Assembly (NCBI GenBank): GCA_025617745.1
Contig: CM046858.1
Coordinates: forward strand, 33,984,598-34,048,597
Length of the DNA: 64,000 nt
Direction: 5' to 3'
Source of the DNA: Heliocidaris erythrogramma
Lineage: Eukaryota > Echinodermata > Echinoidea > Camarodonta > Echinometridae
Shown here piece by piece: positions 12,822-54,166 of this stretch. The first letter of the stretch is position 1. Each line of letters starts with the position of its first letter. Below the pieces are notes generated by a model that worked only from the letters and a program-made list of their open reading frames with translations, was not told the origin of the DNA and searched no databases. A program made the position numbers and the translations under genes.

Positions 12822-13089
12822 TATAATTATTATGGATCGATAACTTAAAAACTACATGTTGAAATAAGTTATGTATTAAATTGGTCACAATTTGCACTGA
12901 AACTCGCATTATGTTGAATTTTGCGGCTTGAAGTAGGAAATATACATCCTTAATTCTTCAAAGTATTGTCTTTCAACAGGGCATGACAAAAAATTATTTA
13001 AAAAAAAAATGTCCAAAATGACTTTTGGCACACTTTGGTTTAGCCCTGGCCCACTGTGCGACGTAGGGGAGAATATATTTGTGGCAGCC

Positions 13090-25307: not shown

Positions 25308-25885
25308 TGTCTTGATGTCACCATGCCTGTATCTCTCGGCGATTGGCGTGTGAGGATCGGCACATTCCTGCGACGGCAGAAGAAAGAATATGACTACAAC
25401 TACTTTCTGAGGAAACTTTTTAGTTTAATCAAAACATCTGCAACAGCTCAGTCACCCAAAGTTAACAACAACAATGACTGTAAAATTTCACCCTTTACGA
25501 GGTCTTCGAGTAATGTTAGTAGTTCTGATGGTAACAAAGCTCATCAAACTGGGTCTTCATGCAATGACAACAGTTCGCAGTGTGACCAAAACTCTCGCAC
25601 AGGACCCCCATGTGACGCCCATAATCCAATAGGGGATAACGCTGTTCATGAGAGCTCTCCATGTAACGTCGATGGATGTGATACTGACGGTGGATCTTCA
25701 TGTTGTGTCACTTGCCTAGGTCGTAGCACTGCTCCGCATTCTAAAGGTTCTACAACCCCATGTCCTGAGTCAGGAAAGACCTGTACTGAGGATGATGCAA
25801 CGGAAGACAGAGACTGTCCAGATATGACTAACATGCTGTTATTAAGATCTGGTGACGTAGAACTCAATCCTGGTCCAAATGATAC
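25308..25885 (+). CDS. NLR gene exon: cysteine/serine-rich leader ending in a 2A peptide
   Basis: An acceptor (TTTTTACGCAG) ends at 25307 and a GTAAG donor starts at 25886. I place the start at ATG 25323 (ACCATGC context). A 5' untranslated exon must precede it; a GTAAGG donor near 25164 is a candidate. The frame is also open upstream in phase 0. The leader begins MPVSLGDWRVRIGTF, then a basic stretch, then about 120 residues rich in Ser, Asn, Thr, Asp and 12 cysteines, with repeated (S/P)(S/P)C words. It ends MLLLRSGDVELNPGP, a canonical 2A (DxExNPGP). Known 2A behaviour is ribosome skipping between the last Gly and Pro, here residues 184/185. The exon ends in phase 2 and joins in frame to the Death exon. 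Urchin NLRs with 2A are known, but there the 2A is near the N-terminus; this long leader is unusual. Confidence 0.85.
25824..25877 (+). other. 2A-like translational recoding site
   Basis: The last 18 residues to the proline are MTNMLLLRSGDVELNPGP or close to it. All invariant positions (D, E, N, P, G, P) are present, preceded by the hydrophobic run MLLL. In this family the nascent peptide stalls the ribosome so that the Gly-Pro bond is not formed and translation resumes at Pro. The intron begins 8 nt after the final proline codon. Confidence 0.9.
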
Positions 25886-26041
25886 GTAAGTTTCTTACAA
25901 ACCAACCTTTCTGACATACTTGTTAACTATAAAAAGCGTTCACTTGTAAAACTATAGATTTAAAAAAGAATACGTGGCTGTACAAAATGACCCAAACGTG
26001 GTCATTTTTAACCCCGTTTGCGTTGTTAACTATATGCACAA

Positions 26042-26080
26042 ACCCCGCACGGTGTCAATGCGACACCGTTGTGTGGGTTA
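26042..26080. repeat. Short hairpin beside the Harbinger insertion
   Basis: ACGGTGTC and GACACCGT form a perfect 8 bp stem around AATGC, extended by AACCC/GGGTT. It belongs to palindromic ACGTGGTC/ACCCCGTT-rich DNA that continues on the other side of the Harbinger element at 29074-29305. Confidence 0.6.
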
Positions 26081-26081
26081 A

Positions 26082-29073
26082 TGCTGGCGTCACACTGTCC
26101 CGAACTTGAGACAACATGGCCATACGAATATGGAATTTTCAATTTCGCGCGAAGTTGGCCCCGAACTTGGTCAACAGCCAATCAACAACAGAAGTTCACA
26201 AGATGGCAACCGAACCACACACGAAGGCTACACGAAGATGTGAAATTTTATTAAGAAGTTTACCCGAATGACACACGACGGCCAAACGATGGTTACACGA
26301 CGTCGTATTGAGAGTACGATGCGTTCAACTAGGTCATGAAGAGGTCACGTGACCTCCCGATGGTATAAAATCTTCGGCCGATCGACCGTACTTCGGCCGA
26401 CCATACCGTATACATGGTATACACGTTGGAAATTCAATTGCTGATCGGTTGCTAGTATTTGGGAGGAGAAAACACATTGGTGTCAAGTTTGACATGCTAC
26501 CCAAAGCAGGGAGAGGCAAGGGGAAGAAGCTGGCCGGTAACAGAACTCAGAAGAGGAAATTAGAGGAAATTGGTAATTTAGTATTAGAGGTCCAAGAAGA
26601 CAGCAATGAGTCTCCGTGGTAAATATCCAGAAGTACTTTGTCATTTCTCCATGCCCCTGGGATGAAATTCTGGTTCTGGTCCTCCAAGTCCATCAGGTTG
26701 TTGTGCGTGACTGGATATCTCAGTCTGATGAGATTGTGAAGGATCACACAAGTTGTGATGACTTGTCTGCATGTCTCTGGCCTCTGGTTCATGGTCCTCC
26801 GCACAACTCGGAACTTGTGTGCCTGAATTCCAAATGCATTTTCTACTACACACCTATATCTGGAGAGTCTGTAGTTAAATATTTTCCAACTTTCTGATGG
26901 AAAACGGGTACATCAGGCGCTTGTTGACCCCCAAAGCATTGTCCCCTACTGTGTAGTATGGTACATTATTGAATAATTATGTTGTTCGGACTCTCCAGGC
27001 TTTCATTTAGTTCTGACCCATATTATAGATACTTGCATCGTTGCTGGAACCATCAGAGCCGACATCAATCCAGGAAAACTTGTAGTCTGCGTCGACCAGG
27101 GCCATGAGGACAATGGAGAAGAAGCCCTTGTAATTTCTGTACTCAGAGACAGTATTCCAAGGACAGGTGACCGCCTCATGCTTGCCGTCCAGAGCACCAC
27201 AGCAGTGTGGAAATTGCCATCTCTTCTCAAACTGATCAGCAATGGCGGTCCACTTTTCACCTCAACAGCAAACTCGGCTTTGATGGCATCGCAGATTTCA
27301 TTACTGATGAGGGAGATGGTGTTTGGAGAAAATATGAAGTTGTAGGACCGACTTGGATAATCGTCACCGCAGGTCAGGTGTCGTAGAGTGATGGACAGCT
27401 TGAGACCAGGAGGGATAGACTTTCTGTACCATGAGTCCTTCTTCTCTATTCTGCCCTCTACCCTTCGCAGGACGTCATCGTAGAGGACTCTGAGAAGTCT
27501 TGTGTAGTTGTAGAAGGTCTTCTCATCTTCTGTCTACAGCTTATCTAGTAGTGTGGTATAGTGGCCATAGCGTTCTCTTCTTTTGTCAACAATTTCCTGA
27601 CCCACATAGACTTCGGATTTGATCCTCCTTCGCCTCGGTTTGCCCCTGCCCTGGAAATTAGAAAGCAAAACAAGATAAGTACCTTGTCGAATGCTAGAAA
27701 GGCACGTACACTCACAAACAAGAATAAAATGTGATCATGGCAGGACCGGTCCATGATACATGACTGCACTGCATCTGCATGCATGATTTTTAAACCAAAG
27801 TTTAATCCCTTAACCTGTCCCTCCGCCATAACCTCATCCTAACTAAGTTTCATAATAAAAAAACTACAGAAAATTCAAGCTGTACTAAAATACTAAAGTA
27901 TTCTGTCATCAACGGCAGGGGACTTACCAATCCAATTCCATCGCCTTTTCACATTTAACAAGCTAATAATTTTGTCCTGGAAGTGAAATAAACACATTTT
28001 ACCTGTAAGAGGAGATGCTGGGCCTCATCATGCTCTCTGAGGTGCATCCAAAGAAGCAATACTGCTGCTTCTTTTTCCTGCTTGTCTCATCATCAAAGTA
28101 AGCCATTCCGCAGGAACTGCCTGTGAATAAAGCTTTGGGAGTTACACACGCCTCTGCTCTGTAGGGTTGCTCAGGACTGACTGAGGAAGATGCTCCGAGG
28201 TCGGCCTTTTATATGTCCACGTTACCATGACACATGGGAAACGCTTGAGCTACTCGAATTCGGCTGTCTTTGCCGACACCGTTGTCCCATCTCGATGTCA
28301 TCGTATGAAGGCTACACGCCGGCATTGCGAGGGCTTCACGTAGTCGTGTTGCCTTCCTATGACAATCGGGCAGCTTCTTGTTTCCTTTGTATTATCTTCG
28401 TAAAGCGAAAAATGTCCGATGCCACCGGTGATCACACGAAGTAAAGACGGAGATGACACGATTTGAATTAAGATGCCTTCACGATGGCCTTAAAGGGATT
28501 CGGTAACTTTGTGGAGGCTTGATATAATAAATTGTTGAATTTTGATATCTGTCTTGTTCAGAAGGATAAATAAATAACCAGGCATAGAAAGGTTTTCAAA
28601 TATATGATGCTATTATTAAGATATCTATGACTGAATACTTTTTTACGAAAGCCTATGGCCAATACGCTTTAGTCTAACACTGAGTCTATGGGGGATGATG
28701 AGTCTGGCATTTTTGGTCACTTGCATATGTTTACTTTTGTGAAGGAAATGATGATTTTGAAGTGCTTTTTTCCCCCTGGGCTTCATTTTTACACCATACA
28801 TACACTGATAGCATGTAAGGCCAGGCAGCTCAGATTTTATCAAGCCTCTACAAAGTTACCAAATCACTTTAAGAGGGGCAAAATTGACACGAATTCAACG
28901 CGAAAATGAACCTTGGCAAGGTCTTCGGGCACTTTTTTGGCATACCAAAGATTCACCGGCGGTCATACGATGGCTTAAGATGCCCTCACGAATGGCCCAG
29001 TGTTTATACGATCAGAGCCGAACCTTGATCGCGTGTCCATCTTTGATCAAGTTCGGGACAGTGTGACGCCTGC
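26082..29073 (-). mobile_element. PIF/Harbinger DNA transposon, nearly full length
   Basis: Terminal inverted repeats TGCTGGCGTCACACTGTCCC (left) and TGCAGGCGTCACACTGTCCC (right, reversed) extend to CGAACTTG. They are flanked by TAA at both sides (26079-26081 and 29074-29076), the 3 bp target duplication typical of the superfamily. The - strand carries a decayed DDE transposase (see 26640-27660). The second Myb-like ORF of the superfamily was not found. The element sits inside intron 1 of the NLR gene, antisense to it. Confidence 0.9.
26640..27660 (-). pseudogene. Harbinger transposase (HARBI1-like, DDE_Tnp_4), decayed
   Basis: Read on the - strand from 27660: RRRERYGHY-like N-terminus, FYNYTRLLRVLYDDVLRRV, IPPGLKLSITLRHLTCG, SPNTISLISNEICDAIKAEF, then the catalytic core WQFPHCCGALDGKH (first Asp), YKGFFSIVLMALVDADYKF, WIDVGSDGSSNDASIYN (second Asp), DNALGVNKRLMYPF, VENAFGIQAHKFRV (Glu) and the C-terminal VILHNLIRLRYP and FIPGAWRN. 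All catalytic residues remain, but the frame changes between blocks and in-frame stops occur (one just before TEDEKTFYN, others near 26870), so no intact protein is made. Nearest known relatives are invertebrate putative nuclease HARBI1 proteins. Confidence 0.85.
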
Positions 29074-29145
29074 ATAACTAAAATGACCACACACAGCGTG
29101 GTTATACATTCAACCCAAAACGTGGTCAAATTGTAACCACGTTGG

Positions 29146-29292
29146 GTGGTTATTTTGTGATAACCCCGTTGGACGGGGTTAATATTTCATACCACGCAAC
29201 ATAGTCGAAACGTGGTCACCTTCTACATTTTGACTATGATGCGTGATATGAAATGATAACCCCGTCCAACGGGGTTATCACAAAATAACCAC
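29146..29292. repeat. Long near-perfect palindrome (35 bp perfect core arms, ~70 bp in total)
   Basis: 29146-29180 (GTGGTTATTTTGTGATAACC onward) is exactly inverted at 29258-29292. Inside, TTTCATACCACGCAACATAG and its partner continue the pairing with a few mismatches almost to the centre. Each arm also contains ACCCCGTTGGACGGGGT, itself a small palindrome. Such cruciform-prone DNA marks a foldback repeat; the Harbinger element is inserted beside it. Confidence 0.85.
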
Positions 29293-29441
29293 GCAATGTA
29301 AGCATTTTTGGTAAACGAAACATGATTCCATAGTTTGGTCCAAGAAAACATGGAACAAACTGAAACTATATTCCGTAAGAAAAAAGCAATATATCTCTAT
29401 AAACTCAATCAAAATACATATTTTTTGTTGTTATGATTTAG

Positions 29442-29704
29442 ACCTGGTAACCTGACCGAGTTAGAGCTCTACCTCCTTGCTGATGGAATGGATCCATCGG
29501 ATTTCAGGAAGGTGGGGCTGGCTTTGGGATTCTCTGAAGCTCAACTAAGTCGGTTCGAGAAAGACCAGTCAAGCACCATGCAAGCTACCTATCAGATGTT
29601 GTACGAGTGGCGAAAGAGAGTGAGTGATACCGAGGCGAGGAAGATATTGGTCAGTACACTAAAACACATTCAGCTGATGCATCTTGCCGATAGTTTAGGC
29701 AAAG
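29442..29704 (+). CDS. NLR gene exon: Death domain
   Basis: The acceptor TTATGATTTAG ends at 29441 and the donor GTAAGG starts at 29705. Entered in phase 2 from the leader exon, it encodes about 88 residues. Successive blocks are LTELELYLLADGMDPSDFRK, VGLALGFSEAQLSRFEKD, ATYQMLYEWRKRVSD and ARKILVSTLKHIQLMHLADS. The helical pattern, the G(F)S..QL.RFE turn and the ML..W motif fit a Death-fold domain, the usual N-terminal module of urchin NLRs, which recruits adaptors or kinases through homotypic contacts. It ends in phase 1, matching the NACHT exon. It lies immediately after the 2A, so the receptor half would begin with Pro followed by a few residues and this domain. A satellite array starts only about 160 bp downstream. 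Confidence 0.85.
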
Positions 29705-29865
29705 GTAAGGTTTATATACATTGCGTATCAAAAATGTTTAGCTAGATGTGGTAGCCTTCGTTGAAATATTTTAAGTCCTCCATGACCTAAAGATTTATTT
29801 CATGACGGAGAGTATCATTCTGTCTTAAAATACACTAAAAGTAACTCTGCTGCCACCACTGGCGT

Positions 29866-29999
29866 AGACCGGAATTTTCAATAGAGGGTGGGGGGGGGGG
29901 GGGGGGGGTGCAGACGTGAAGGATCCTACCGCATAGCCAGGATCTCATTTTAAGGGGGCGGTTGTGAGCACGCGAAGAGTGCGAAATTGGTGGTGACGT
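29866..29999 (+). repeat. Terminus of the poly(G)/satellite mobile repeat
   Basis: ACTGGCGTAGACCGG, a G18-like run, GCAGACGTGAAGGATCCTACCG, CATAGCCAGGAT and GGGGGCGGTTGTGAGCACGC follow in order. The same series, reversed, closes the composite at 51430-51590, and part of it occurs at 46755-46830. In all three places satellite monomers lie directly inside it. I infer that this is one end of a dispersed element. Confidence 0.7.
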
Positions 30000-32900
30000 T
30001 ATCTTTTAGCACCTTTTTTATAGGCGGAATATTTGTTTCACGCCCTGGCAGCTTTTCAGTTATTTGGACGCAATACTGCACTCTATGTGACAGGGGTGGG
30101 TGCAGGCCGGGAAGGAAGTTTCCCTCTTCCCGCGCGAAGCGCAAAAGCTCTGACGTTTTAGCAAATTTGAGAGGAAGATAAACGGGTCGTAGCAAACAAT
30201 TACTTTAGGTGGAAAGTTATGGTTCGACGCCGTGACTGCTTTTCAGTTATATGAATGTAATACTGCACTGTATGTAATAGGGGTGGATGTCGGGAGAGGG
30301 AGTTTCTCTTTTCCCGCGCGGTGCTCGAAAACTTTTAGCACCTGTTTTATAGCTGGAATATTTGTTCGACGCCCTGGCTGCTTTTCAGTTATTTCATCGC
30401 AATACTGCACTGTATGTAATAGGGGTGGATGCAGGGAGAGGGAGTTTCCCCCTTCCCGAGCGAAGCGCAAGAGCTCTGACTTTAAGCAAATTTGAGAAAA
30501 AGATAAGGGCTAGTAGCAAACAATTTTTTTAGGTGGAAAGTTATGGTTCGACGCCGTGACTGCTTTTCAGTTATTTGGATGTAATACTGCACTGTATGTA
30601 ATAGGGGTGGATGCAGGGAGAGAGAGTTTTCCCCCCTCCCGCGGAAGACGGGAAAGCTTTTACGTTCTACAGTAAATTTGATAGAAAGATAACGGCTCCT
30701 AACACTTATTTTAGGCGGAAAGTTAGTTCGACGCCCTGGCTGCTTTTCAGTTATTTCATCGCAATACTGCACTCTATGTAATAGGGGTGGATGCAGGGAG
30801 AGGGAGTTTCCCCCTTCCCGCGCGAAGCGCGAAAGCTCTGACGTTTTAGCAAATTTGAGAGAAAGTTATAGTTCGACGCCCGGAATGCTTTTCAGTTATT
30901 TGGACGTAATACTGTACTGTATGTAATAGGGGTGGATGCAGGGAGAGGGATTTTTCTCCTCCCTGCTCGAAACGCAAAACCTCTGAAGTTATCCTTTAGC
31001 ACCTTTTTATAGGCGGAATATTTGTTCGAAGCCCTGGCTCAATTTCAGTTATTTGGACGCAATACTGCACTATATGTGACAGGGTTGAGTGCAGGGAGAG
31101 GCAGTTTCCCCTTCCCGCGCAAAGCGCCAAAGCTCTGACGTTTTAGCACCTATTTTATAGGCGGAATGTTAGTTCGACGACCTGGTTGCTTTTCAGTTAT
31201 TTGGACGTAATACTGTACTGTATGTAATAGGGGTGGATGCAGGGAGAGGGATTTTTCTCCTCCCTGCGCGAAACGCGAAACCTCTGAAGTTATCCTTTAG
31301 CACCTTTTTATAGGCGGAATGTTAGTTCGACGCCCGGAATGCTTTTCAGTTATTTGGACGTAATACTGTACTGTATGTAATAGGGGTGGATGCAGGGAGA
31401 GGGATTTTTCTCCTCCCTGCTCGAAACGCGAAACCTCTGAAGTTATCCTTTAGCACCTTTTTATAGGCGGAATATTTGTTCGACGCCCTGGCTCAATTTC
31501 AGTTATTTCATCGCAATACTGCACTCTATGTAATAGGGGTGGATGCAGGGAGAGGGAGTTTCCCCCCTTCCGCGCGAAGCGCGAAAGCTCTGACGTTTTA
31601 GCAAATTTGAGAGAAAGTTATAGTTCGACGCCCGGAATGCTTTTCAGTTATTTGGACGTAATACTGTACTGTATGTAATAGGGGTGGATGCAGGGAGAGG
31701 GATTTTTCTCCTCCCTGCGCGAAACGCGAAACCTCTGAAGTTATCCTTTAGCACCTTTTTATAGGCGGAATATTTGTTCGACGCCCTGGCTCAATTTCAG
31801 TTATTTGGACGCAATACTGCACTATATGTGACAGGGTTGAGTGCAGGGAGAGGCAGTTTCCCCTTCCCGCGCAAAGCGCCAAAGCTCTGACGTTTTAGCA
31901 CCTATTTTATAGGCGGAATGTTAGTTCGACGACCTGGTTGCTTTTCAGTTATTTGGACACAACACTGAATTTTATGCAGGAGGGGTGGGTGCAGGGAGTG
32001 TGTGTGGGGGGGGGGGGGGAAGTTCCCATTTTATAGTTCAACGCCCTGGCTGCTCTTCAGTTATTTGAACATAATACTACACTTTATGTAACAGGGCTGG
32101 GTGTAGGGAGGGGGTTCCTCTTTTCCTGCGCATGCGCGAAAGCTCTGCATGTTAGGAAATTTGAGAGAGAGATAACGGCTCATAGCACACAATTTTATTA
32201 GGCGGAAAGTATTGTTCGACGCCCGGAATGCTTTTCAGTTATTTGGACGTATAGTACTACTGCACTGTACGTAATAGGGGTGGATGCAGGGAGAGGGAGT
32301 TTTCCCCTTCCCGCGCAAAGCGCAAGAAACTCTGACGTTACCTTTTAGCACCTTTTTTATAGGCTGAATATTTGTTCGACGCCCTGGCAGCTTTTCAGTT
32401 ATGTGAATGCAATACTGCACTGCATGTAACAGGGTGGATGCAGGGAGAGGGAGTTTCCCCCTTCCCGCGCGAAGCGCAAAGGCTCTGACTTTTAGCAAAT
32501 TTGAGAAAAAGATAAGGGCTCCTAACACTTATTTTAGGCGGAAAGTTAATAGTTCGACGCCCTGGCTGATTTTCAGTTATTTCATCGTAATACTGCGCTG
32601 TATCTGGGGTGGATGCAGGGAGAGGGAGTTTCCCCCTTCCCGCGCAAAGCGCAAAAGCTCTGACGTTTTAGCCAATTTGAGAGAAAGTTAAACGGCTCGT
32701 AGCAAACATTTTTTCTAGGTGGAAAGTTATGGTTCGACGCCATGACTGCTTTTCAGTTATATGGATGTAATACTGTACTGTTTGTAATAGGGGTGGGTGC
32801 AGGGAGAGGGAGTTTGCCCCTTCCCGCGCGAAGCGCGAAAGCTCTGACGTTTTAGCACCCTTTTTATAGGCGGAATGTTAGTTCGACGCCCTGGTTGCTT

Positions 32901-33617
32901 TTCAGTTATTTTATCGCGATACTGCACTGTATGTAATAGGGGTGGCTGCAGGAGAGAGAGTTTCCCCCTTCCCGCGCGAAGCGCAAAAGCTCTGACGTTT
33001 TAGCAAATTTGAGAGAAAGATAAACGGCTCGTAGCAAACAATTATATTAGGTGGAAAGTTATGGTTCGACGCCGTGACTGCTTTTCAGTTATATGAATGT
33101 AATACTGCACTGTATGTAATAGGGGTGGATGTCGGGAGAGGGAGTTTCCCTTTTCCCGCACGGTGCTCGAAAACTTTTAGCACCTGTTTTATAGCTGGAA
33201 TATTTGTTCGACGCCCTGGCAGCTTTTCTGTTATTTGGGCACAATACTGCACTCTATGTGACAGGGGAGGGTGCAGGCCGGGTGAGGGAGTTTCCCCCTT
33301 CCCGCGCAAAGCGCCAAAGCTTTGACGTTTTAGCACCTTTTTTTATAGGCGGAATGTTATTTCGACGCCCTGGCTGCTTTTCAGTTATTTGGACGCAATA
33401 CTACACTGTATGTAACGGGGGTGGGTGCAGGGATGGGGGAGGGGGGAGGGGGGGGGGGGGTCCTCCTTTCCTGCGCAAAGCGCGAAAGCTCTGAAGTTTT
33501 AGGAAATTTGGGAGAGAGATAACGGCTCATAGCAAACAATTTTATTAGGCGGAAAGTTATAATTCGACGCCCGGAATGCTTTTCAGTTATTTGGACGTAT
33601 AGTGCTACTGCACTGTA
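30000..33617 (+). repeat. Satellite array, diverged part
   Basis: Tandem monomers begin at GTTCGACGCC, with recurrent blocks GCTTTTCAGTTATTT, AATACTGCACTGTATGTAAT, AGGGGTGGATGCAGGGAGAG, CCCGCGCGAAGCGC, GCTCTGACGTTTTAGC and GATAACGGCTC. Full monomers are about 175-181 bp; shorter ones lack the AAATTTGAGAGAAAGATAAC segment. A local higher-order unit of about 750 bp is visible (GGGTTGAGTGCAGGG at about 31082 and 31833). An older version of the 35799 higher-order unit lies at about 32340-33060. It is intronic (NLR intron 2). Open frames in it are by-products. Confidence 0.9.
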
Positions 33618-35239
33618 CAGTTAACAACAAAATTATTCATACCCCTTGGAAAATTATAGTTTTTTGCATTTTTCCTAAAAATGAATGGTTAAATGAAGTT
33701 ACTTGCACATCACTTGAATACATTTAGTTATCATCTGCAAATGAATGCCGTTTCCGGTTTCACCTCATTTGCATAACAATAGAAAAGGTGAGTTATCCAA
33801 ACTGGGCGATGTTCAAAATTATTCATACCCTTGGTGATTTATTGACTTTGCCAATCAGTATGAATCCGATCCTTGTGATTAATACTTGTAATTCACTTCA
33901 TTTTAATACACCATCACAAGGCTTCCAGAGGGGTCTCTGCTGGGATATCAGGCCAGTACCTGTTCTCCAATGGCTCATTCTCCTTGAGGATGTGTCCACA
34001 CATGCCTTCACCTGACCTTCAGGGAGTTCATTAGATTTCGTGTCCTACAGGTGATGCAGTTATCGACTTCATGATGACAGGACTATGATATTGAAATTTT
34101 CGGTCACTTATTCCATGCATTTTAATGAAAATTCTGTATCTACTTATGAAGCAAAGCACCATTCCTGAAGAGCCCTTCCCTTTTGCACTGCCTGTGGGAG
34201 GGTTCACCTTTATTCATTGGCCCCATTCTTAATCAGAGTGCTCAGGAAGGCCATGTTGGTGATATTAAAGTCATTGCATGACTCTAACGTCAGGTCACCA
34301 TGAATAACAGTATGTAACCTTTGAGTACCATACACATCCCACATTGACTGTTACTGTATATCAATCTTCATATGGTATATTCTTTGTATCTTTGGTATGA
34401 AAGCTACAATCCTTGATATCAAAATGAATGTAAACCAAATTTATACCATATGCCCTCCATGTTACCAGCTGCAGTGCACAAAATGCTACCACTTTGACAG
34501 TGCACTGGAAAATAAAGATCAGTATTTTAAGCTTCACTAGAGTACCCACTTGCAGGTGTCCATATCAAAAATGTGTCAATCAGTGTAACTGCATAAACTG
34601 ATAAAATTGGCACCATCCAACCCTTAGACAACTACCATGGCCTCCCTAAACATTCTTAATAATAATGGAACAAAAGTATCAGGAAATACCTTCCCTTGAC
34701 AGTGCAACAGTGAATGCCTCTAGGGAAGTCTCTCCAGGAAGAGTGCTTTGTTTCAACTTAGATACAGAATTGTCATTAAAATGTAAGGAATATTAACGAA
34801 AATATAAATATCATAGTCCTATCCTCTGACGTCTAAAACTACACCACCTGCAAACACAAAATCTGCTTTAAATCCATCGAATCCCCTGAAGACCAGGTGA
34901 TGGCATGTGTGGACAACATCCTCAAGGAGATTGGGCCATTGGAGACCAGGTATTGGCCTGATATCTCAGTAGAGACCTCCAGAAGCATTGTGACAGTGTG
35001 AAGAAAGTGTTACGAGCATTAATCACAAGGACTGGATTCATACTGATTGACAAAGTCAATAGATCACCAAGGGTATGAATAATTTTGAACATCACCCAGT
35101 TTGGATAATTCACCTTTTCTATTGTTATGCAAATGTATTCAAGTGATGTGCAACTAAATTCAGTTAACCATTCATTTTTAGGAAAAAATGCAAAAAACTA
35201 TAATTTTCCAAGGGGTATGAATAATTTTGTTGTTAACTG
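33618..35239. mobile_element. Tc1/mariner-like foldback element inserted in the satellite
   Basis: It begins CAGTTAACAACAAAATTATT and ends with the exact complement, flanked by TA (33616-33617 and 35240-35241). The duplication splits the satellite word ACTGTATGTAATAGG. The inverted arms are very long (about 33618-34190 and 34680-35239) and share ATTTATTGACTTTGCCAATC and the TCTCCTTGAGGATGT-like block in mirror order. No transposase frame was found, so it is non-autonomous. The 1622 bp copy looks complete. Confidence 0.9.
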
Positions 35240-35241
35240 TA

Positions 35242-35798
35242 TGTAATAGGGATGGATGCAGGGAGAAGGAGTTTTCCCCTTCCCGCGCAAAGCGCAAAAA
35301 CTCTCACGTTACCTTTTAGCACCTTTTTTATAGGCTGAATATTTGTTCGACGCCCTGGCAGCTTTTCAGTTATGTGAATGCAATACTGCACTGTATGTAA
35401 CAGGGTGGATGCAGGGAGAGGGAGTTTCCCCCTTCCCGCGCGAAGCCCGAAAGCTCTGACGTTTTAGCACCCTTTTTATAGGCGGAATGTTAGTTTGACG
35501 CCCTGGTTGCTTTTCAGTTATTTTATCGCGATACTGCACTGTATGCAATAGGGGTGGCTGCAGGGAGAGGGAGTTTCCCCCTACCCGCGCGAAGCGTAAA
35601 AGCTCTGACGTGTAAGGAAATTTGAGAGAGAGATAACGGCTCATAGCACACAATTTTATTAGGCGGAAAGTATTGTTCGACCCCCGGAATGCTTTTCAGT
35701 TATTTGGACGTATAGTACTACTGTATTGTACGTAATAGGGGTGGATGCAGGGAGAGGGAGTTGTCCCCTTCCCGCGCAAAGCGCAAGAAACTCTGACG
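35242..35798 (+). repeat. Satellite monomers between the Tc1-like element and the higher-order block
   Basis: The interrupted monomer resumes with TGTAATAGGGATGG, followed by about three monomers of the same family, leading into the first higher-order unit. Confidence 0.85.
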
Positions 35799-38700
35799 TT
35801 ACTTTTTTATAGGCTGAATATTTGTTCGACGCCCTGGCAGCTTTTCAGTTATGTGAATGCAATACTGCACTGCATGTAACAGGGTGTATGCAGGGAGAGG
35901 GAGTTTCCCCCTCCCGCGCGAAGCGCAAAGGCTCTGACTTTTAGCAAATCTGAGAAAAAGATAAGGGCTCCTAACACTTATTTTAGGCGGAAAGTTAATA
36001 GTTCGACGCCCTGGCTGATTTTCAGTTATTTCATCGCAATACTGTACTGTATGTAATAGGGGTGGATGCAGGGAGAGGGAGTTTCCCCCTTCCCGCGCAA
36101 AGCGCAAAAGCTCTGACGTTTTAGCCAATTGAGAGAAAGATAAACGGCTCGTAACAAACATTTTTTTTTAGGTGGAAAGTTATGGTTCGACGCCATGACT
36201 GCTTTTCAGTTATATGGATGTAATACTGTACTGTTTGTAATAGGGGTGGGTGCAGGGGGAGGGAGTTTGCCCCTTCCCGCGCGAAGCGCGAAAGCTCTGA
36301 CGTTTTAGCACCCTTTTTATAGGCGGAATGTTAGTTCGACGCCCTGGTTCCTTTTCAGTTATTTTATCGCGATACTGCACTGTATGTAATAGGGGTGGCT
36401 GCAGGGAGAGAGAGTTTCCCCCTTCCCGCGTGAAGCGCAAAAGCTCTGACGTTTTAGCAAATTTGAGAGAAAGATAAACGGCTCGTAGCAAACATTTTTT
36501 TAGGTGGAAAGTTAGTTCGACGCCCTGGCTGCTTTTCAGTTATTTCATCGCAATACTGCACTGTATGTAATAGGGGTGGATGCATGGGGGAGGGAGTTTC
36601 CCCCTTCCCGCGCGAAGGGCGAAAGCTCTGATGTTTTAGCAAATTTGAGAGAAAGATAACGGCTCCTAACACTTATTTTAGGCGGAAAGTTAGTCCGACG
36701 CCCTGGCTGCTTTTCAGTTATTTCATCGCAAAACTGTACTGTATGTAATAGGGGTGGATGCAGGGAGAGGGTGTTTCCCCCCCCCCCCCCCTTCCCGCGC
36801 GAAGCGCGAAAGCTCTGACGTTTTAGCAAATTTGAGAGAAAGATAACGGCTCTAATAACAAACTATTTTATTAGGCGGAAAGTTATAGTTCGACGCCTTG
36901 GCTGCTTTTCAGTTATTTCATCGCAATACTGTACTGTATGTAATAGGGGTGGATGCAGGGAGAGGGAGTTGTCCCCTTCCCGCGCAAAGCGCAAGAAACT
37001 CTGACGTTACTTTTTTATAGGCTGGATATTTGTTCGACGCCCTGGCAGCTTTTCAGTTATGTGAATGCAATACTGCACTGCATGTAACAGGGTGTATGCA
37101 GGGAGAGGGAGTTTCCCCCTCCCGCGCGAAGCGCAAAGGCTCTGACTTTTAGCAAATCTGAGAAAAAGATAAGGGCTCCTAACACTTATTTTAGGCGGAA
37201 AGTTAATAGTTCGACGCCCTGGCTGATTTTCAGTTATTTCATCGCAATACTGTACTGTATGTAATAGGGGTGGATGCAGGGAGAGGGAGTTTCCCCCTTC
37301 CCGCGCAAAGCGCAAAAGCTCTGACGTTTTAGCCAATTGAGAGAAAGATAAACGGCTCGTAACAAACATTTTTTTTTAGGTGGAAAGTTATGGTTCGACG
37401 CCATGACTGCTTTTCAGTTATATGGATGTAATACTGTACTGTTTGTAATAGGGGTGGGTGCAGGGGGAGGGAGTTTGCCCCTTCCCGCGCGAAGCGCGAA
37501 AGCTCTGACGTTTTAGCACCCTTTTTTTAGGTGGAAAGTTAGTTCGACGCCCTGGCTGCTTTTCAGTTATTTCATCGCAATACTGCACTGTATGTAATAG
37601 GGGTGGATGCATGGGGGAGGGAGTTTCCCCCTTCCCGCGCGAAGGGCGAAAGCTCTGATGTTTTAGCAAATTTGAGAGAAAGATAACGGCTCCTAACACT
37701 TATTTTAGGCGGAAAGTTAGTCCGACGCCCTGGCTGCTTTTCAGTTATTTCATCGCAAAACTGTACTGTATGTAATAGGGGTGGATGCAGGGAGAGGGTG
37801 TTTCCCCCCCCCCCCCCCCCTTCCCGCGCGAAGCGCGAAAGCTCTGACGTTTTAGCAAATTTGAGAGAAAGATAACGGCTCTAATAACAAACTATTTTAT
37901 TAGGCGGAAAGTTATAGTTCGACGCCTTGGCTGCTTTTCAGTTATTTCATCGCAATACTGTACTGTATGTAATAGGGGTGGATGCAGGGAGAGGGAGTTG
38001 TCCCCTTCCCGCGCAAAGCGCAAGAAACTCTGACGTTACTTTTTTATAGGCTGAATATTTGTTCGACGCCCTGGCAGCTTTTCAGTTATGTGAATGCAAT
38101 ACTGCACTGCATGTAACAGGGTGTATGCAGGGAGAGGGAGTTTCCCCCTCCCGCGCGAAGCGCAAAGGCTCTGACTTTTAGCAAATCTGAGAAAAAGATA
38201 AGGGCTCCTAACACTTATTTTAGGCGGAAAGTTAATAGTTCGACGCCCTGGCTGATTTTCAGTTATTTCATCGCAATACTGTACTGTATGTAATAGGGGT
38301 GGATGCAGGGAGAGGGAGTTTCCCCCTTCCCGCGCAAAGCGCAAAAGCTCTGACGTTTTAGCCAATTGAGAGAAAGATAAACGGCTCGTAACAAACATTT
38401 TTTTTTAGGTGGAAAGTTATGGTTCGACGCCATGACTGCTTTTCAGTTATATGGATGTAATACTGTACTGTTTGTAATAGGGGTGGGTGCAGGGGGAGGG
38501 AGTTTGCCCCTTCCCGCGCGAAGCGCGAAAGCTCTGACGTTTTAGCACCCTTTTTATAGGCGGAATGTTAGTTCGACGCCCTGGTTCCTTTTCAGTTATT
38601 TTATCGCGATACTGCACTGTATGTAATAGGGGTGGCTGCAGGGAGAGAGAGTTTCCCCCTTCCCGCGCGAAGCGCAAAAGCTCTGACGTTTTAGCAAATT

Positions 38701-41430
38701 TGAGAGAAAGATAAACGGCTCGTAGCAAACATTTTTTTAGGTGGAAAGTTAGTTCGACGCCCTGGCTGCTTTTCAGTTATTTCATCGCAATACTGCACTG
38801 TATGTAATAGGGGTGGATGCATGGGGGAGGGAGTTTCCCCCTTCCCGCGCGAAGGGCGAAAGCTCTGATGTTTTAGCAAATTTGAGAGAAAGATAACGGC
38901 TCCTAACACTTATTTTAGGCGGAAAGTTAGTCCGACGCCCTGGCTGCTTTTCAGTTATTTCATCGCAAAACTGTACTGTATGTAATAGGGGTGGATGCAG
39001 GGAGAGGGTGTTTCCCCCCCCCCCCCCTTCCCGCGCGAAGCGCGAAAGCTCTGACGTTTTAGCAAATTTGAGAGAAAGATAACGGCTCTAATAACAAACT
39101 ATTTTATTAGGCGGAAAGTTATAGTTCGACGCCTTGGCTGCTTTTCAGTTATTTCATCGCAATACTGTACTGTATGTAATAGGGGTGGATGCAGGGAGAG
39201 GGAGTTGTCCCCTTCCCGCGCAAAGCGCAAGAAACTCTGACGTTACTTTTTTATAGGCTGGATATTTGTTCGACGCCCTGGCAGCTTTTCAGTTATGTGA
39301 ATGCAATACTGCACTGCATGTAACAGGGTGTATGCAGGGAGAGGGAGTTTCCCCCCCTCCCGCGCGAAGCGCAAAGGCTCTGACTTTTAGCAAATCTGAG
39401 AAAAAGATAAGGGCTCCTAACACTTATTTTAGGCGGAAAGTTAATAGTTCGACGCCCTGGCTGATTTTCAGTTATTTCATCGCAATACTGTACTGTATGT
39501 AATAGGGGTGGATGCAGGGAGAGGGAGTTTCCCCCTTCCCGCGCAAAGCGCAAAAGCTCTGACGTTTTAGCCAATTGAGAGAAAGATAAACGGCTCGTAA
39601 CAAACATTTTTTTTTAGGTGGAAAGTTATGGTTCGACGCCATGACTGCTTTTCAGTTATATGGATGTAATACTGTACTGTTTGTAATAGGGGTGGGTGCA
39701 GGGGGAGGGAGTTTGCCCCTTCCCGCGCGAAGCGCGAAAGCTCTGACGTTTTAGCACCCTTTTTTTAGGTGGAAAGTTAGTTCGACGCCCTGGCTGCTTT
39801 TCAGTTATTTCATCGCAATACTGCACTGTATGTAATAGGGGTGGATGCATGGGGGAGGGAGTTTCCCCCTTCCCGCGCGAAGGGCGAAAGCTCTGATGTT
39901 TTAGCAAATTTGAGAGAAAGATAACGGCTCCTAACACTTATTTTAGGCGGAAAGTTAGTCCGACGCCCTGGCTGCTTTTCAGTTATTTCATCGCAAAACT
40001 GTACTGTATGTAATAGGGGTGGATGCAGGGAGAGGGTGTTTCCCCCCCCCCCCCCCCTTCCCGCGCGAAGCGCGAAAGCTCTGACGTTTTAGCAAATTTG
40101 AGAGAAAGATAACGGCTCTAATAACAAACTATTTTATTAGGCGGAAAGTTATAGTTCGACGCCTTGGCTGCTTTTCAGTTATTTCATCGCAATACTGTAC
40201 TGTATGTAATAGGGGTGGATGCAGGGAGAGGGAGTTGTCCCCTTCCCGCGCAAAGCGCAAGAAACTCTGACGTTACTTTTTTATAGGCTGAATATTTGTT
40301 CGACGCCCTGGCAGCTTTTCAGTTATGTGAATGCAATACTGCACTGCATGTAACAGGGTGTATGCAGGGAGAGGGAGTTTCCCCCTCCCGCGCGAAGCGC
40401 AAAGGCTCTGACTTTTAGCAAATCTGAGAAAAAGATAAGGGCTCCTAACACTTATTTTAGGCGGAAAGTTAATAGTTCGACGCCCTGGCTGATTTTCAGT
40501 TATTTCATCGCAATACTGTACTGTATGTAATAGGGGTGGATGCAGGGAGAGGGAGTTTCCCCCTTCCCGCGCAAAGCGCAAAAGCTCTGACGTTTTAGCC
40601 AATTGAGAGAAAGATAAACGGCTCGTAACAAACATTTTTTTTTAGGTGGAAAGTTATGGTTCGACGCCATGACTGCTTTTCAGTTATATGGATGTAATAC
40701 TGTACTGTTTGTAATAGGGGTGGGTGCAGGGGGAGGGAGTTTGCCCCTTCCCGCGCGAAGCGCGAAAGCTCTGACGTTTTAGCACCCTTTTTATAGGCGG
40801 AATGTTAGTTCGACGCCCTGGTTCCTTTTCAGTTATTTTATCGCGATACTGCACTGTATGTAATAGGGGTGGCTGCAGGGAGAGAGAGAGAGTTTCCCCC
40901 TTCCCGCGCGAAGCGCAAAAGCTCTGACGTTTTAGCAAATTTGAGAGAAAGATAAACGGCTCGTAGCAAACATTTTTTTAGGTGGAAAGTTAGTTCGACG
41001 CCCTGGCTGCTTTTCAGTTATTTCATCGCAATACTGCACTGTATGTAATAGGGGTGGATGCATGGGGGAGGGAGTTTCCCCCTTCCCGCGCGAAGGGCGA
41101 AAGCTCTGATGTTTTAGCAAATTTGAGAGAAAGATAACGGCTCCTAACACTTATTTTAGGCGGAAAGTTAGTCCGACGCCCTGGCTGCTTTTCAGTTATT
41201 TCATCGCAAAACTGTACTGTATGTAATAGGGGTGGATGCAGGGAGAGGGTGTTTCCCCCCCCCCCTTCCCGCGCGAAGCGCGAAAGCTCTGACGTTTTAG
41301 CAAATTTGAGAGAAAGATAACGGCTCTAATAACAAACTATTTTATTAGGCGGAAAGTTATAGTTCGACGCCTTGGCTGCTTTTCAGTTATTTCATCGCAA
41401 TACTGTACTGTATGTAATAGGGGTGGATGC
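35799..41430 (+). repeat. Dimeric higher-order satellite: five alternating long and short units
   Basis: Unit starts at 35799, 37007, 38036, 39245 and 40273 give lengths of 1208, 1029, 1209, 1028 and about 1160+ bp before identity is lost near 41430. The 179 bp difference is one monomer: long units carry ATAGGCGGAATGTTAGTTCG plus a TTTTATCGCGATAC monomer that short units lack. Long units read GGCTGAATATTT and short ones GGCTGGATATTT at their start. Units are otherwise almost identical, apart from a poly(C) tract of 15, 17, 14, 16 and 11 bases. This implies recent amplification of a dimer of about 2237 bp. Confidence 0.9.
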
Positions 41431-41578
41431 AGGGAGAGGGATTTTTCTCCTTCCTGCGCGAAGCGCGAAAACTCTGGCGTTTTAGCACCTATTTTATAGG
41501 CTGAATGTTAGTTCGACGACCTGGTCGCTTTTCAGTTATTTGGACACAATACTGAACTTTATGTAACAGTGGTGGGTG

Positions 41579-41580
<2 letters not shown>

Positions 41581-41610
<30 letters not shown>

Positions 41611-42083
41611 TGTTGTTGTTGTTTTAAAATAGGCAAACTAGTCAATTTTGACTATTGTTGCCTTACTAAATTGCTCTTTTCACTTATACTTTGTTTGTTG
41701 ATCCGTGGGTCTAACTTTAGTTTTTGTTAGAAAGGTACAGATTCCAGGATACCATGCTGGACCGCCACTCCTGCCCTGATTTTACAACGTTATCCTGACA
41801 AGCCCGCTCGAGGTACATTTCGAGGGCGTCTTAGGAATACAAGTACTCCCTATGTCTCTCAAACGTGAGCAGGGGGCGCTCTTTCTGATTCCTCATAGAA
41901 CCTGATTAGAAAATCCGAATATATAAAAGCAAAATAAATACGTACACAGATTTTCTTTCTGTTTTTTTTTTAAAGTAGAGTATATACTGACATTAAAGGG
42001 CCTTTCAATTAAGTGAAATTACAAGAAAAGTGCACCTATACCTATAGTTAGTATATAACTAAGTGCTTCGTCTTTGAGCAGCG

Positions 42084-42128
<45 letters not shown>

Positions 42129-42381
42129 TACAGTATGATTGTACACATTAACATTCAATGGTCACAACCTAAATCCTATCCGATTTACTTCGATTCCGTT
42201 CTCTTTATTTGGTTACACCTTACTATCACGGTTGCCCTCTTGGCAACCAATTACAAATCGACGAGTCCTTTTGAAATATCTGACGAGTGCACCTTGTGTC
42301 TTGACACTGAGATTCTCCACTTTGCGTTCCGCCTCTGAGACATTGCTCACATTTAATTCAGCAAGTAACAGGGCGCGTTGT

Positions 42382-42416
<35 letters not shown>

Positions 42417-42424
42417 CCCCTTTT
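41581..42424. other. Non-satellite insertion within the array
   Basis: The array is broken by a (GT)n/(GTT)n tract (about 41584-41625), then about 450 bp of unrelated AT-rich sequence, an A run of about 35 or more at 42088-42124, about 250 bp of unrelated sequence and a G33 run (42382-42414). No family was recognised. The A run could be the tail of a retroposed + strand sequence, but no source gene was identified. Confidence 0.6.
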
Positions 42425-43660
42425 ATAGTTCGACGCCCAGACTGCTTTTTAGTAATTTGGACGTAATACTGCAATGCATGTAACAGGGGTGGGTGCAGGG
42501 AGGGGGAGTTTCCCCCCTCCTGCGCGAGACGCGAAAGCTTTTACGTTTTACAGTAAATTTGAGAGAAAGATAACGGCTCCCTACACTTATTTTAGGCGGA
42601 AAGTTAGTTCGACGCCCTGGCTGCTTTTCAGTTATTTCATCGCAATACTGCACTGCATGTAATAGGGGTGGATGCATGGGTGAGGGAGTTTCCCACTTCC
42701 CGCGCGAAGTGCGAAAGCTCTGACGTTTAAGCAAATTTGAGAGAAAGATAACGGCTCCTAACACTTATTTTAGGCGGAAAGTTAGTTCGACGCCCTGGCT
42801 GCTTTTCAGTTATTTCATCGCAATACTGCACTGTATGTAATAGGGGTGGATGCAGGGAGAGGGAGTTTCCCCCTTCCCGCGCGAAGCGCAAAAACTCTGA
42901 CGTTTTAGCAAATTTCAGAGAAAGATAAACGGCTCGTAGCAAACATTTTTTTAGGTGGAAAGTTAGTTCGACGCCCTGGCTGCTTTTCAGTTATTTCATC
43001 GCAATACTGCACTGTATGTAATAGGGGTGGATGCATGGGGGAGGGAGTTTCCCCCTTCCCTCGCGAAGGGCGAAAGCTCTGATGTTTTAGCAAATTTGAG
43101 AGAAAGATAACGGCTCCTAACACTTAATTTAGGCGGAAAGTTAGTCCGACGCCCTGGCTGCTTTTCAGTTATTTCATCGCAATACTGTACTGTATGTAAT
43201 AGGGGTGGATGCAGGGAGAGGGTGTTTCCCCCCTTCCCGCGCGAAGCGCGAAAGCTCTGACGTTTTAGCAAATTTGACAGAAAGATAACGGCTCGTAGCA
43301 AACGATTTTATTAGGCGGAAAGTTATAGTTCGACGCCCGGAATGCTTTTCAGTTATTTTGACGTAATACTGCACTGTATATGTAATAGGGGTGGATGCAG
43401 GGAGAGGGATTTTTCTCCTTCCTGCGCGAAGCGCGAAAACTCATTTTAGGCGGAAAGTTAGTTCGACGCCCTGGCTGCTTTTCAGTTATTTCGTCGCAAT
43501 ACTGCACTGTATATAATAGGGGTGGATGGAGGGAAAGGGAGTTTCCCCCTTCCCGCGCGAAGCGCTAAAGCGCTGACGTTTTAGAAAATTTGAGAGAAAG
43601 ATAATTAAACGGCTCGGAGAAAGATGACAGCTTGTAGCGCCTTTTTATGCCTTTTTCTCT
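42425..43660 (+). repeat. Satellite array, distal part, and other terminus
   Basis: About seven monomers of the same family, in the same orientation. The array ends with CTTGTAGCGCCTTTTTATGC and TTTTTCTCTC. A similar ending (CTCGTAGCACC, TTTTTCTCT) closes the small copy at about 47075, so this is probably the other end of the parent element. Confidence 0.85.
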
Positions 43661-44515
43661 CATTTACACCCGCTTTACATACAAAAAGAAAAAAACAAAA
43701 CAAAACAAACAAAGCTGTAATTGACCACAGCTTTGTTTAATTTGACCGTACCATTTTCTAATAAATTGGTAATATTTTACATGACATGGTGGTATCAAAA
43801 GAATTTTCATAGGGTTATGTACGCGACCACGTGTGAAGCGGAAACGCAATGAATGATGCGTGTGTTGACATCTGCCAAAGAAATTGACAGTGACTGTAGT
43901 GAAACAGATGACATCCCAACTAAGCTTTGTCCACAGACTGTGAATAACTCAATGAACATCTATGTAATTGGGCATAAAATGTTGATTTCATTTCCATCAA
44001 TGGCGCACTCCCATGCATATCAATGAGCTGTTTCAGAATTTCTGAAGTTCATTATAAGTTATATTGATTTACTGTGAGGCAGTTTATTAGTCAATTTGTT
44101 GACGCAGTAATCCCTAGGTATTTTTGTATTTATTTATTTTTTTAATCACGTTATATAGTTCTTGAGCTTAGCCCATTATGGGTGACCCTCTATCATGGGT
44201 GAATCTTTTTTTATGCAGGTTGTTCTTCCATCATTTGCACGAGACTTTTGAACGATTGCCTACTTGTTAGTAGATCCTTGCCGTTAAAGTCATGGACCTG
44301 ATATCATGCCTTGTGAGCAGGTTTACATGGTTTATATGGTACACCTTCTTGTCCCTTTGTCCATTGCTTTGGGCATTTTATTTTGTGTTAATTTCAACAC
44401 CTTAAAGAGATATCCAGAACATGATGTACCAGTCTCTCCCCCTCCCCCCTCCCCACCCCATCGCGATGAATTGACTATAGTGTTAATGACAATTTTCATT
44501 ACATTGTCATTACAG
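43661..44515. other. NLR intron 2, distal part
   Basis: AT-rich DNA with an AAAAC-type tract near 43685 and a short C/T-rich stretch near 44440. No further feature. It ends in the acceptor TTGTCATTACAG. Confidence 0.6.
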
Positions 44516-46101
44516 GTCATATTGGTGAACACATTCCATCATTAACAGAGGAGGAGATCCAACAAGTTGCAGACGATATCAAACACCATTTCTCCATTGA
44601 GCTGTGTCAGATACAAGCCGATCCGTTAAACAGCGAACTTCTACTTCAATTCGAACGTATATTCACCAATCTAACGTTGATGGAAGAGAACAAAGGCACA
44701 AAGCATAAGGCACCTCTACTCTACGATGACCTTCTCAAGACCAAAGTCAACGGGGTCTATCCGAAGCGCTTGTTAGTGGAAGGGGAAGGTGGTGTGGGGA
44801 AGACAACTCTTTGCGCCAAGATCGCTTGGGATTGGATCCATGGAATAGGCTACCATGATTTCAAACTGGTTCTTGTTATTCTACTCCGCAAGGCAAAAGA
44901 CAAGACTATTGGAGAAATAGTCAAATCATATCTTTCTGACAACAATCCTGTCACAGCCAAGCAACTAGACAAGTATATCCTTACGAATGCCGATAAAGTC
45001 TTTCTTGTTCTTGATGGCCTAGATGAGTTTGATGTGGATTTTACTAGCATGCAGGAAATCATGCAGATCACTCTCAATCGGTTATTCAAGTCAGGTACAG
45101 TCGTAATCACATCGCGACAATGGAGATCAGATGAAATTAGGAAGGTCGTCGATCTAAGAAAGGCATTTGCTTTCATTGCCGTGGAAGGATTCTCTGCTGA
45201 AAACCTCGCCTCCTATGTCACGAAGTTCTTTCAGCCCGATTTAGCTTCCTCTGAAGAACTTAACCGATTCATATCAGGTAATGATGTGATAAGAGAGAAC
45301 ATGGCCCCCTTCCCTATATATACAGCCATGCTGTGTATCATGTGGAAAGAGTTTGATGGAGAACGCCGAGAAGCAATGTGCAAGCTGCAAACGTTTTCTC
45401 AGCTCTTCGATGAGATGGTTAACTTTTTGGTTTACCACTACCTAGCAAAGGATCTTGCGTCCTCTGCTAGTGCTTCACTGGACAATCGTCGTTTGGATGT
45501 TGTTGACCATCTAACTGTCATTGGTTCGATTGCCTTCCAGGGACTGAAAGGGAGACAGCTGCTGTTTTCAGAAGAGGAATTTTCGAATTGTCGGGAATCA
45601 ATGAACATGGGTTGTAAAGTTGGAGTGCTCACTCGGGAAAAACGTATTCCCGTCATGCGAGAAAGGAGACAGTCATTGTCGGCAGTCTCCACGGTGCAGT
45701 TCCCTCATAAACTATTTCAGGAGTATCTATCAGGGATGTATCTTGCATCCCTTTACAACTCAAATCGGCGTGATGAATATGACAGGTTGATAGCGGATAT
45801 CATAAACAGAGCAAGGGAATACCAATACCTACTGTATTTCACCTCGGCCCAGAAGAAGGAAGTTGGCTTGGACATCGTATCTCGTCTGACACGTCTAATG
45901 GCCCTGAAAGAGCGTACATACATGCGCCCCATTGATAACAACTTCATCGTAGATGTAGCATACGAGAGCCAGGATCAAGTAGTGGCTAAAGCAGTGGCGC
46001 ACCATCTCTCGACTAAGTCCAGCAGGACACTGAACATCACGGAGTGGATGCAGGCACACACAGTATCAGCTCATATTTTCGTCGTAGATCATCGTGAAGT
46101 G
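44516..46101 (+). CDS. NLR gene exon: NACHT ATPase and winged-helix region
   Basis: The exon enters in phase 1 and is open for 528 codons to a GTAAGA donor at 46102. A helical linker (IGEHIPSLTEEEIQQ onward) precedes the NACHT domain. Walker A is GEGGVGKTT (44782-44808), Walker B is VFLVLDGLDEF (about 44998-45030), and sensor 1 is VVITSRQWR. These are followed by VEGFSAENLASYVTKFF, PFPIYTAMLCIMWKE and the NLR hallmark FPHKLFQEYLSGMYLASL near codon 405. NACHT proteins use nucleotide-driven oligomerisation for innate signalling. Catalytic motifs are intact and the exon has no stop. A single large exon for the NACHT is typical of urchin NLRs. It ends in phase 0 after HREV. Confidence 0.93.
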
Positions 46102-46588
46102 GTAAGAATGACAACAGGCTTATCACATCAACATAGGCTCTAATTCATGAAGGTTATTCAATTTTGTATAAAAGTATAAATAAACGAAATGTAACACATT
46201 CATGACATGGAAATGCGAAATTGATTTCATAAGGATTTGATATGATAGTTATGTTTGTCCATTTAGTACCAAGTACGAACTTGATCTTTAATGATGAGCT
46301 TGAGTGCGATAAAGCAATAAATTGTAGCATTATCCAAGGGATAATTATTACAGATGGGACGATGACATTGATTTTTATATTCTGTGGCGTTTGAAACCGC
46401 TAAATCCTTTATGTTATCATAGACATTGTTCAAAAATTTGCTTATGTTTTTTTTTAAGTGGGGTTAGAGAATGCCAGTTGCAAGAATTGATGATGATGTA
46501 AATAAAGATGCATTGTTTGGTTCAATTTTAATATTTTAGTGTTTCTACGTTTACAATGTAACCCTGTTTTAATCTGTGTGTACTGTAG
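46102..46588. other. NLR intron 3
   Basis: AT-rich, with GTAAGA at the 5' end and TGTACTGTAG at the 3' end. No insertions recognised. Confidence 0.7.
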
Positions 46589-46744
46589 GATAACCTGGTT
46601 ATCGAGAAGTCATGTGGAAGGACCGCTTCAGAAGACCTGGCTGAATTCATGTGCACATCACCATCTCTGAGATCAGTGACGATCGAAACAACTATGCATG
46701 ATGTTTTCTACGCCGTGCTTGCTACTAAAGTAGTGCATTCCAAG
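46589..46744 (+). CDS. NLR gene exon: leucine-rich-type module 1
   Basis: 156 nt, phase 0 on both sides, open, with donor GTCAGT. It encodes 52 residues starting DNLVIEKSCGRTASEDLAEF and ending TKVVHSK. The pattern A(S)xDLAxFxC, then a hydrophobic strand, then (H)DxFYxxL and SK, aligns with the exon at 53993-54166. Such phase-0 exons form the C-terminal LRR-like region of urchin NLRs, thought to sense ligands or restrain the NACHT. It is less canonical than the later module, so a diverged repeat. Confidence 0.8.
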
Positions 46745-53992: not shown

Positions 53993-54166
53993 ATTGAGAC
54001 CTTTGACATTTGGGAAGTGAATCTCAGTGAACGCCCCTCAGCATCACGTGATCTCGCTAAGTTCATCTGTAAGATGTCTCATCTGAAGAAGCTGACGCTG
54101 CTCTATGGGGTATTGCTACACGATGACTTCTACTCATCATCATCATCGATGGCATCGTCTGCAAAG
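53993..54166 (+). CDS. NLR gene exon: leucine-rich-type module 2
   Basis: 174 nt, phase 0 at both ends, acceptor AATTATTTAACAG, donor GTACTG. It encodes IETFDIWEVNLSERPSASRD, LAKFICKMSHLKKLTLLYGV and LHDDFYSSSSSMASSAK. I recognise the RPSASRDLAxFICKMxxLxxLTL and LHDDFYS.SSSMASSAK pattern as a standard LRR-region exon of sea urchin NLR proteins. It can follow 46589-46744 in frame. Confidence 0.88.

Follow-up and report, generated by a model that had tools for sequence, protein, structure and literature searches.

A motif-led leader and a 2A element precede the Death and NACHT exons of a sea urchin receptor gene and recur upstream of NACHT genes across its genome

Ribosome skipping at 2A sequences is held to be a rare form of recoding in host genes (PMC12846837), and its closest described counterpart to the case reported here lies among the NOD-like receptors (NLRs) of the sea urchin Strongylocentrotus purpuratus, 85 of 241 of which carry a 2A at their N-terminal end or close to it (Roulston et al. 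2016, PMC4981915). There, 2A use has been studied as a signal-sequence device: the 14 tabulated SpNLR2A sequences are 26 residues long and stand at the very N-terminus, and 12 are predicted signal sequences. We analyzed a 64,000-nucleotide stretch of Heliocidaris erythrogramma DNA (the window; C6:33984598-34048597 of a 1.06-Gb genome in 26 contigs), which contains an NLR gene with a 184-residue leader ending in a 2A element ahead of Death and NACHT domains, and searched the same genome for its relatives.

The leader, the 2A and the receptor exons of this gene follow one another in phase, the arrangement recurs across the genome, and both ends of the leader are under selection. The gene resembles the SpNLR2A genes in carrying a 2A-like element in the N-terminal region of a Death-NACHT receptor, with R11, L13 and L14, the positions named in SpNLR2A6, identical. 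It differs from them in that its 2A does not form the first 26 residues, the released product ending at residue 184, and in that its leader begins with a conserved motif and has no signal-like segment (KD19 of at most 0.34). With viral StopGo/2A sequences it shares the core DVELNPGP and an L-rich context (LLLRSG in the window, compared with an LLLLSG-like group; PMC12846837), but the window gene belongs to the host, and its upstream product is a leader peptide and not a viral protein. We found no description of a long motif-led leader in the available text of PMC4981915, and a literature text search for the leader motif strings found no paper. As far as literature searches show, the long leader, its conserved motif and the genome-wide coupling are new, 2A-bearing sea urchin NLRs as such having already been published.

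The leader/2A, Death and NACHT exons

The leader/2A exon (25308..25885, plus strand, as are all features of this gene) is a fused form of 578 nt, bounded by the acceptor CTTTTTACGCAG and the donor GTAAGT, with a phase-2 end. Because its open frame extends through the upstream acceptor, the start codon was placed at the ATG at 25323 from the conserved MP[VI]SL start; coding then runs to LLLRSGDVELNPGPND plus two nucleotides of a codon, and the stretch from this ATG through the G of NPG codes for 184 residues, in agreement with the ~184 given by a first-pass annotation of the same DNA. Beyond intron 1 (25886..29441), the Death-domain exon (29442..29704; Pfam PF00531, E = 2.2e-11) opens at the acceptor GATTTAG followed by A, which supplies the one nucleotide needed to stay in phase. 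This exon ends one nucleotide into a codon, and the NACHT exon that lies beyond intron 2 (29705..44515) supplies the remaining two (44516..46101; Pfam PF05729, E = 4.9e-22; acceptor CATTACAG followed by GTCAT, donor at 46102). The joined leader-Death-NACHT frame comprises 804 codons with no stop, and the complete DVELNPGP reported by the first pass at the end of the leader exon, with an in-frame Death exon next, is confirmed at 25854-25877. The window shares the phase of its Death acceptor with the paralogous loci, as found by script in 7 of the 8 and by eye in the remaining one (L050); a GT stands at the homologous Death donor place and phase in 8/8 loci, with consensus scores of 5-7 out of 9 (8 in the window). 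The assignment of leader, 2A, Death and NACHT to one gene is supported at the level of exon structure, and in-phase splice sites repeated in paralogues, together with a 2A core always present where read, make a single mRNA yielding leader and receptor in fixed ratio, as first proposed, the best reading of the locus.

The receptor had also been described as Death-NACHT-LRR. Death and NACHT match Pfam profiles; no profile match was found for leucine-rich repeats (LRRs). The gene probably extends past 46101, because a piece at 46589..46729 (a probable next exon, with approximate ends) recurs after NACHT in seven other loci (L036, L038, L040, L041, L043, L048 and L050). A possible further exon, a weak match with approximate ends, lies at 54038..54133 (tblastn, E = 0.002). 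Neither piece matched Pfam, and their LRR-like appearance is by eye alone.

The 2A element itself (LLLRSG-DVELNPG/P, 25836..25877, with the skip site between 25874 and 25875) contains the D(V/I)ExNPGP sequence that defines 2A/StopGo elements. The pattern DVE-x-NPGP, allowing one mismatch, has a single match in the 64 kb, with 0.01 expected from shuffles, and D[V/I]ExNPGP has 398 matches genome-wide versus 0 for the reversed pattern. When the core was masked in the query, all 26 exons reaching the core (26/26, at 20 distinct places in the C6, C21 and C2 families, three further exons being cut by locus ends) nevertheless carried a 2A, and these results together rule out a 2A by chance. The dN/dS (ratio of nonsynonymous to synonymous substitution rates) of the 14-codon 2A core was 0.07 at a dS of 0.77, compared with 0.67-0.76 in the preceding sequence, in a set of 18 exons that were picked by motif and are biased toward conservation to that extent.

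The upstream context LLLRSG reads as permissive when set beside the LLLLSG-like group and R11/L13/L14 of SpNLR2A6. Ribosome skipping at the window 2A is likely, because SpNLR2A6 skipped at ~80% in vitro in published assays, by a qualitative estimate (PMC4981915), and L-rich upstream contexts are an active class among viral 2A sequences (PMC12846837). We propose that leader, 2A, Death and NACHT, probably followed by a C-terminal repeat part, are read in a single frame from one spliced mRNA, and that at NPG/P most ribosomes would skip one peptide bond and continue. Each round of translation would then yield two products, the 184-residue leader with NPG at its end and a receptor starting with PNDTPGNL, with a minority remaining fused.

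Selection on the two ends of the leader

An N-terminal motif that the first-pass annotation had missed (MPVSLGDWRVRIGTF, 25323..25367) is conserved better than any other part of the leader. These first 15 residues fit the family consensus MP[VI]SLx[ED]WR[VIM]RIGx[FY] in 8 representative leaders (from C2, C6, C11, C12 and C21), and the motif pattern has 129 matches genome-wide versus 31 when reversed. Because these residues hardly vary among many receptor genes of this animal, the leader is likely to have its own function.

Constraint covers residues 1-40 as a whole, including a basic stretch at residues 16-40 (25368..25442) that is probably helical. In the six closest copies of the fused form, dN/dS was 0.06 in residues 1-40 and 0.56 in the rest of the exon, and 0.05 and 0.52 when the fused copies were compared with the more distant L007 (one pair), the rest of the exon including the 2A in fused copies. 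Genes in which the 2A occupies an exon of its own gave 0.29 and 0.68 (nine C6 genes) and 0.14 and 0.67 (14 C6 genes), and seven C21 genes gave 0.27 and 0.99; homogenisation of tandem copies may depress dN and dS jointly. Because dN/dS is low in residues 1-40 and in the 2A core and higher between them, the leader consists of two kept ends and a freer middle, the latter being a fast-evolving stretch rich in Ser, Thr, Asn and Cys (25443..25835), as delimited by dN/dS after residue 40 and by composition.

The first pass had seen the leader as a Cys-rich module, possibly secreted, and neither description was supported. The cysteines lie in the fast-evolving part, amounting to 6.4% of the window leader and 2.2-6.1% of the other seven leaders compared. 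Their number, 9-13 among the six fused copies counted, is not conserved. The window leader has no Pfam match, and a search of the PDB gave a best E of 1.7 and no relative; a conserved Cys-rich fold was rejected on the lack of a Pfam or PDB relative, the varying Cys number and the high dN/dS of the middle. A secreted companion was rejected for the window copy, which has no hydrophobic segment (maximum KD19 of 0.34). Leaders of two other families do have such segments, likely membrane segments, with a maximum KD19 of 1.98 in L042 and 3.04 in L033.

The core of the amyloid-forming RHIM is (V/I)Q(V/I/L)G. The leader motif is likewise short, conserved and carried on a signalling-receptor gene, and its V-R-I-G resembles the RHIM tetrad in outline, but an arginine replaces the central glutamine and the window motif would be cut away from its receptor. 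A RHIM-like amyloid motif was rejected because this glutamine is absent, the tetrad reading VRIG in the window and V/I/M-R-I-G in eight leaders.

We propose that the whole family shares the leader as an accessory part, in which an N-terminal motif and basic stretch are joined by a weakly constrained spacer to a 2A that serves as release device, and that the freed leader would act through its N-terminal motif, in trans and in fixed ratio, on a partner common to the receptors, as a cofactor or a brake. To this model as a whole, from the single mRNA through 2A release to action in trans, we assign a probability of roughly 55%. The trans action is the step that we infer and favour, because it best explains constraint at the leader end far from the 2A. 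The weakly constrained middle would suit a removable cap, in which the released leader is functionless and the 2A exists to leave the receptor with an N-terminal proline, raised elsewhere as a possible destabiliser (PMC12846837), or to tie synthesis to elongation conditions, in line with a proposal in PMC4981915 that stress controls 2A output. This account is unlikely, in our judgment, as it leaves unexplained why residues 1-40, ~130 residues before the 2A, are the best conserved.

Leader, 2A and NACHT across the genome

The 188-residue leader, used as a query, had 115 matches in the same genome. Leader-like exons number at least 90 and occur on eight contigs; they were compiled from 72 of the 100 listed motif matches (of 129) and 18 matches from protein searches. 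These were compared with 120 listed 2A places (100 of the 398 pattern matches were placed, and dispersed copies judged to be retrotransposons were set aside) and with 91 of 115 NACHT matches, the second halves of split matches being left out. At least 79/90 leaders have a 2A, and at least 66/90 a NACHT, on their own strand and no more than 30 kb downstream. On the opposite strand at the same distance both counts are 0/90 among the listed matches; upstream on the same strand, again among those listed, both counts remain 0 at 30 kb and rise to 3 each at 60 kb.

A second count used the Pfam NACHT model, so that it did not start from the NACHT of the window itself. Of 312 candidates, 101 NACHT places were scored, all of them above the curated cut-off (the loose search also matches in 11 of 14 control prokaryotes, 3 of them above the cut-off). 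No more than 30 kb upstream, at least 65/101 of these places have a 2A and at least 54/101 a leader plus 2A, so that an arrangement the first pass had called unusual for an innate receptor is common among NLRs in its own genome. These counts are lower bounds, and co-linearity is no proof of splicing.

With long introns filled by repeats, and with two leader-like matches that carry a stop in the motif, one could suppose that the leader/2A exon and the NLR are transcribed separately, or that the leader is a relic without function and lies in phase by coincidence. We regard this as highly improbable: dozens of loci share the same order and strand with 0 opposite-strand cases, the phases match in the loci checked, and purifying selection acts at both ends of the leader.

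The coupling has a complement in 28/101 NACHT places with neither a listed leader nor a listed 2A within 60 kb, several of them in clusters of their own. Two such clusters (C9 38.6-41.3 Mb and C3 0-2.3 Mb), with no listed leader or 2A within 60 kb, constitute a natural control set. At L034, L035 and L044 a Death-sized open exon without a Pfam Death match lies between 2A and NACHT; tblastn of the window Death exon gave E values of 8e-9, 0.002 and 0.65, respectively, and the exons of L034 and L035 probably have a diverged Death fold. At C2 40.1-40.9 Mb, a leader with a DVEVNPGP-type 2A lies ~50-75 kb upstream of a GFCHLYL-type 2A and NACHT on the same strand (example positions 40202494, 40197853, 40151969 and 40144003), an arrangement that may represent either two alternating gene types or one gene with two 2A sites.

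Exons of the published 26-residue type also occur. L056 has Met26, D25, M12, R11, L13 and L14 in the numbering of PMC4981915, and a leader-like exon lies upstream of 17 of 48 such exons within 5 kb and of 22 within 50 kb, with 0 on the opposite strand. At L054 a Leu stands at the position of the start Met, and the protein of that gene therefore cannot start there. Together with the hydrophobic segments of L042 and L033, the presence of these exons fits a dual fate in cis, for which the 26-residue 2A signal sequences of sea urchin NLRs are a direct precedent (PMC4981915): the uncut minority of receptors would be what matters, relocated or kept inactive by the leader, with 2A efficiency setting the split. 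We hold this main rival of the trans model to be possible but doubtful, as the window leader, at a maximum KD19 of 0.34, does not fit the published signal-sequence mode, and the strongly kept 2A points to separation as the chief event.

Leader and 2A share one fused exon at seven places, the window included. The other families that were read keep the two apart, with an exon A of ~90 to >1000 codons, which has the MP[VI]SL start and WR.R.G, and a separate exon B of ~40-50 codons, which has the 2A. Exon A mostly has a phase-0 end and a GTAAGA donor in the C6 and C21 families. Exon B was inspected at 21 loci: a phase-0 acceptor lies 108-129 nt ahead of the core in 15 of them, and 16 share the phase-2 donor of the window. 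Comparison with the two-exon relative L036, 280 kb away, locates the fusion junction of exons A and B at 25733..25768: exon A of L036 matches the window to 25732 and exon B from 25769, the 2.4 kb between them (L036 2754-5176) being missing. Because the other families read are two-exon, the fused, shortened leader would most simply be derived in the seven-gene clade of the window.

This clade lacks a DDDELDCREIT-like motif present in most C6 and C21 relatives. The acidic motif (DDDELDCR[EK]IT-like) is found in the C21 leaders L013, L015, L018, L019, L022, L024 and L027 and in most C6 two-exon leaders, and the C21 leaders have a second, diverged copy. At C11 47.5-49.8 Mb, the leader frames of L031-L033 reach ~1000 codons; they contain long NNTPTQSTIKE repeats and, by eye, two hydrophobic stretches, and the gene model is uncertain.

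Odon et al. reportedly described, in 2013, 2A sequences of APE-type non-LTR (long terminal repeat) retrotransposons. The window 2A has the same motif, and dispersed copies exist in its own genome, but Death and NACHT follow it, and not an endonuclease/reverse-transcriptase frame. Two dispersed copies that we sampled (L051 and L052) look like non-LTR retrotransposons, with a PHD-like Cys-rich stretch and endonuclease-like sequence after the 2A by eye, and the stretches of them that were read contain no WRVRIG-like match. A retrotransposon origin of the leader was rejected on these two copies, the only ones read, and others may differ.

Mobile sequence is also present in the window. Intron 1 holds, on the minus strand at 26547-26912, a DDE transposase piece (Pfam DDE_Tnp_4, E = 1.1e-9), which we take to be Harbinger/PIF-like. 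Intron 2 consists mostly of tandem repeat arrays, related ones with periods of ~150-360 occupying 30003-43442, where minus-strand open frames are probably repeat artefacts. A reverse-transcriptase fragment lies on the minus strand at 12408-12851 (RVT_1, E = 1.9e-5, under the curated cut-off).

Weight of the evidence and meaning for sea urchin NLRs

Several observations weigh against the proposed model. A role in cis could account for the kept residues 1-40 just as one in trans could. In the alignment of 28 leaders, which excludes L014 (500 N) and L030 (exon B only), L010, L021 and L028 deviate from the motif consensus at 1-2 places, and 28 of the 100 listed motif matches were unlike a leader and were dropped, two having a stop within the motif and two reading WRVRIGYF. 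Within 30 kb, 11/90 leaders have no listed 2A and 24/90 no listed NACHT; 36/101 NACHT places have no listed 2A, and the receptor therefore does not need one. The splice sites expected of exon B are not found at every locus: L056 has a phase-1 donor candidate only, four exon-B loci have no donor candidate, and several have extra acceptor candidates in other phases.

More tentatively, and at well below even odds, a large animal NLR clade may be a two-protein system, in which every receptor is made together with a motif-led leader, the 2A fixing one leader per receptor. The leaders would compete for a shared partner, and total NLR output would be sensed or limited in trans. If this is true, a leader exon missed in annotation may precede some of the 2A signal sequences published as 'N-terminal', which would then be internal exons.

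A motif-led leader and a 2A stand upstream of over half of the scored NACHT places, and selection acts on precisely the leader's two ends. Leader exons may therefore be missing from NLR gene models, and the role of 2A in animal immune receptors becomes directly testable.

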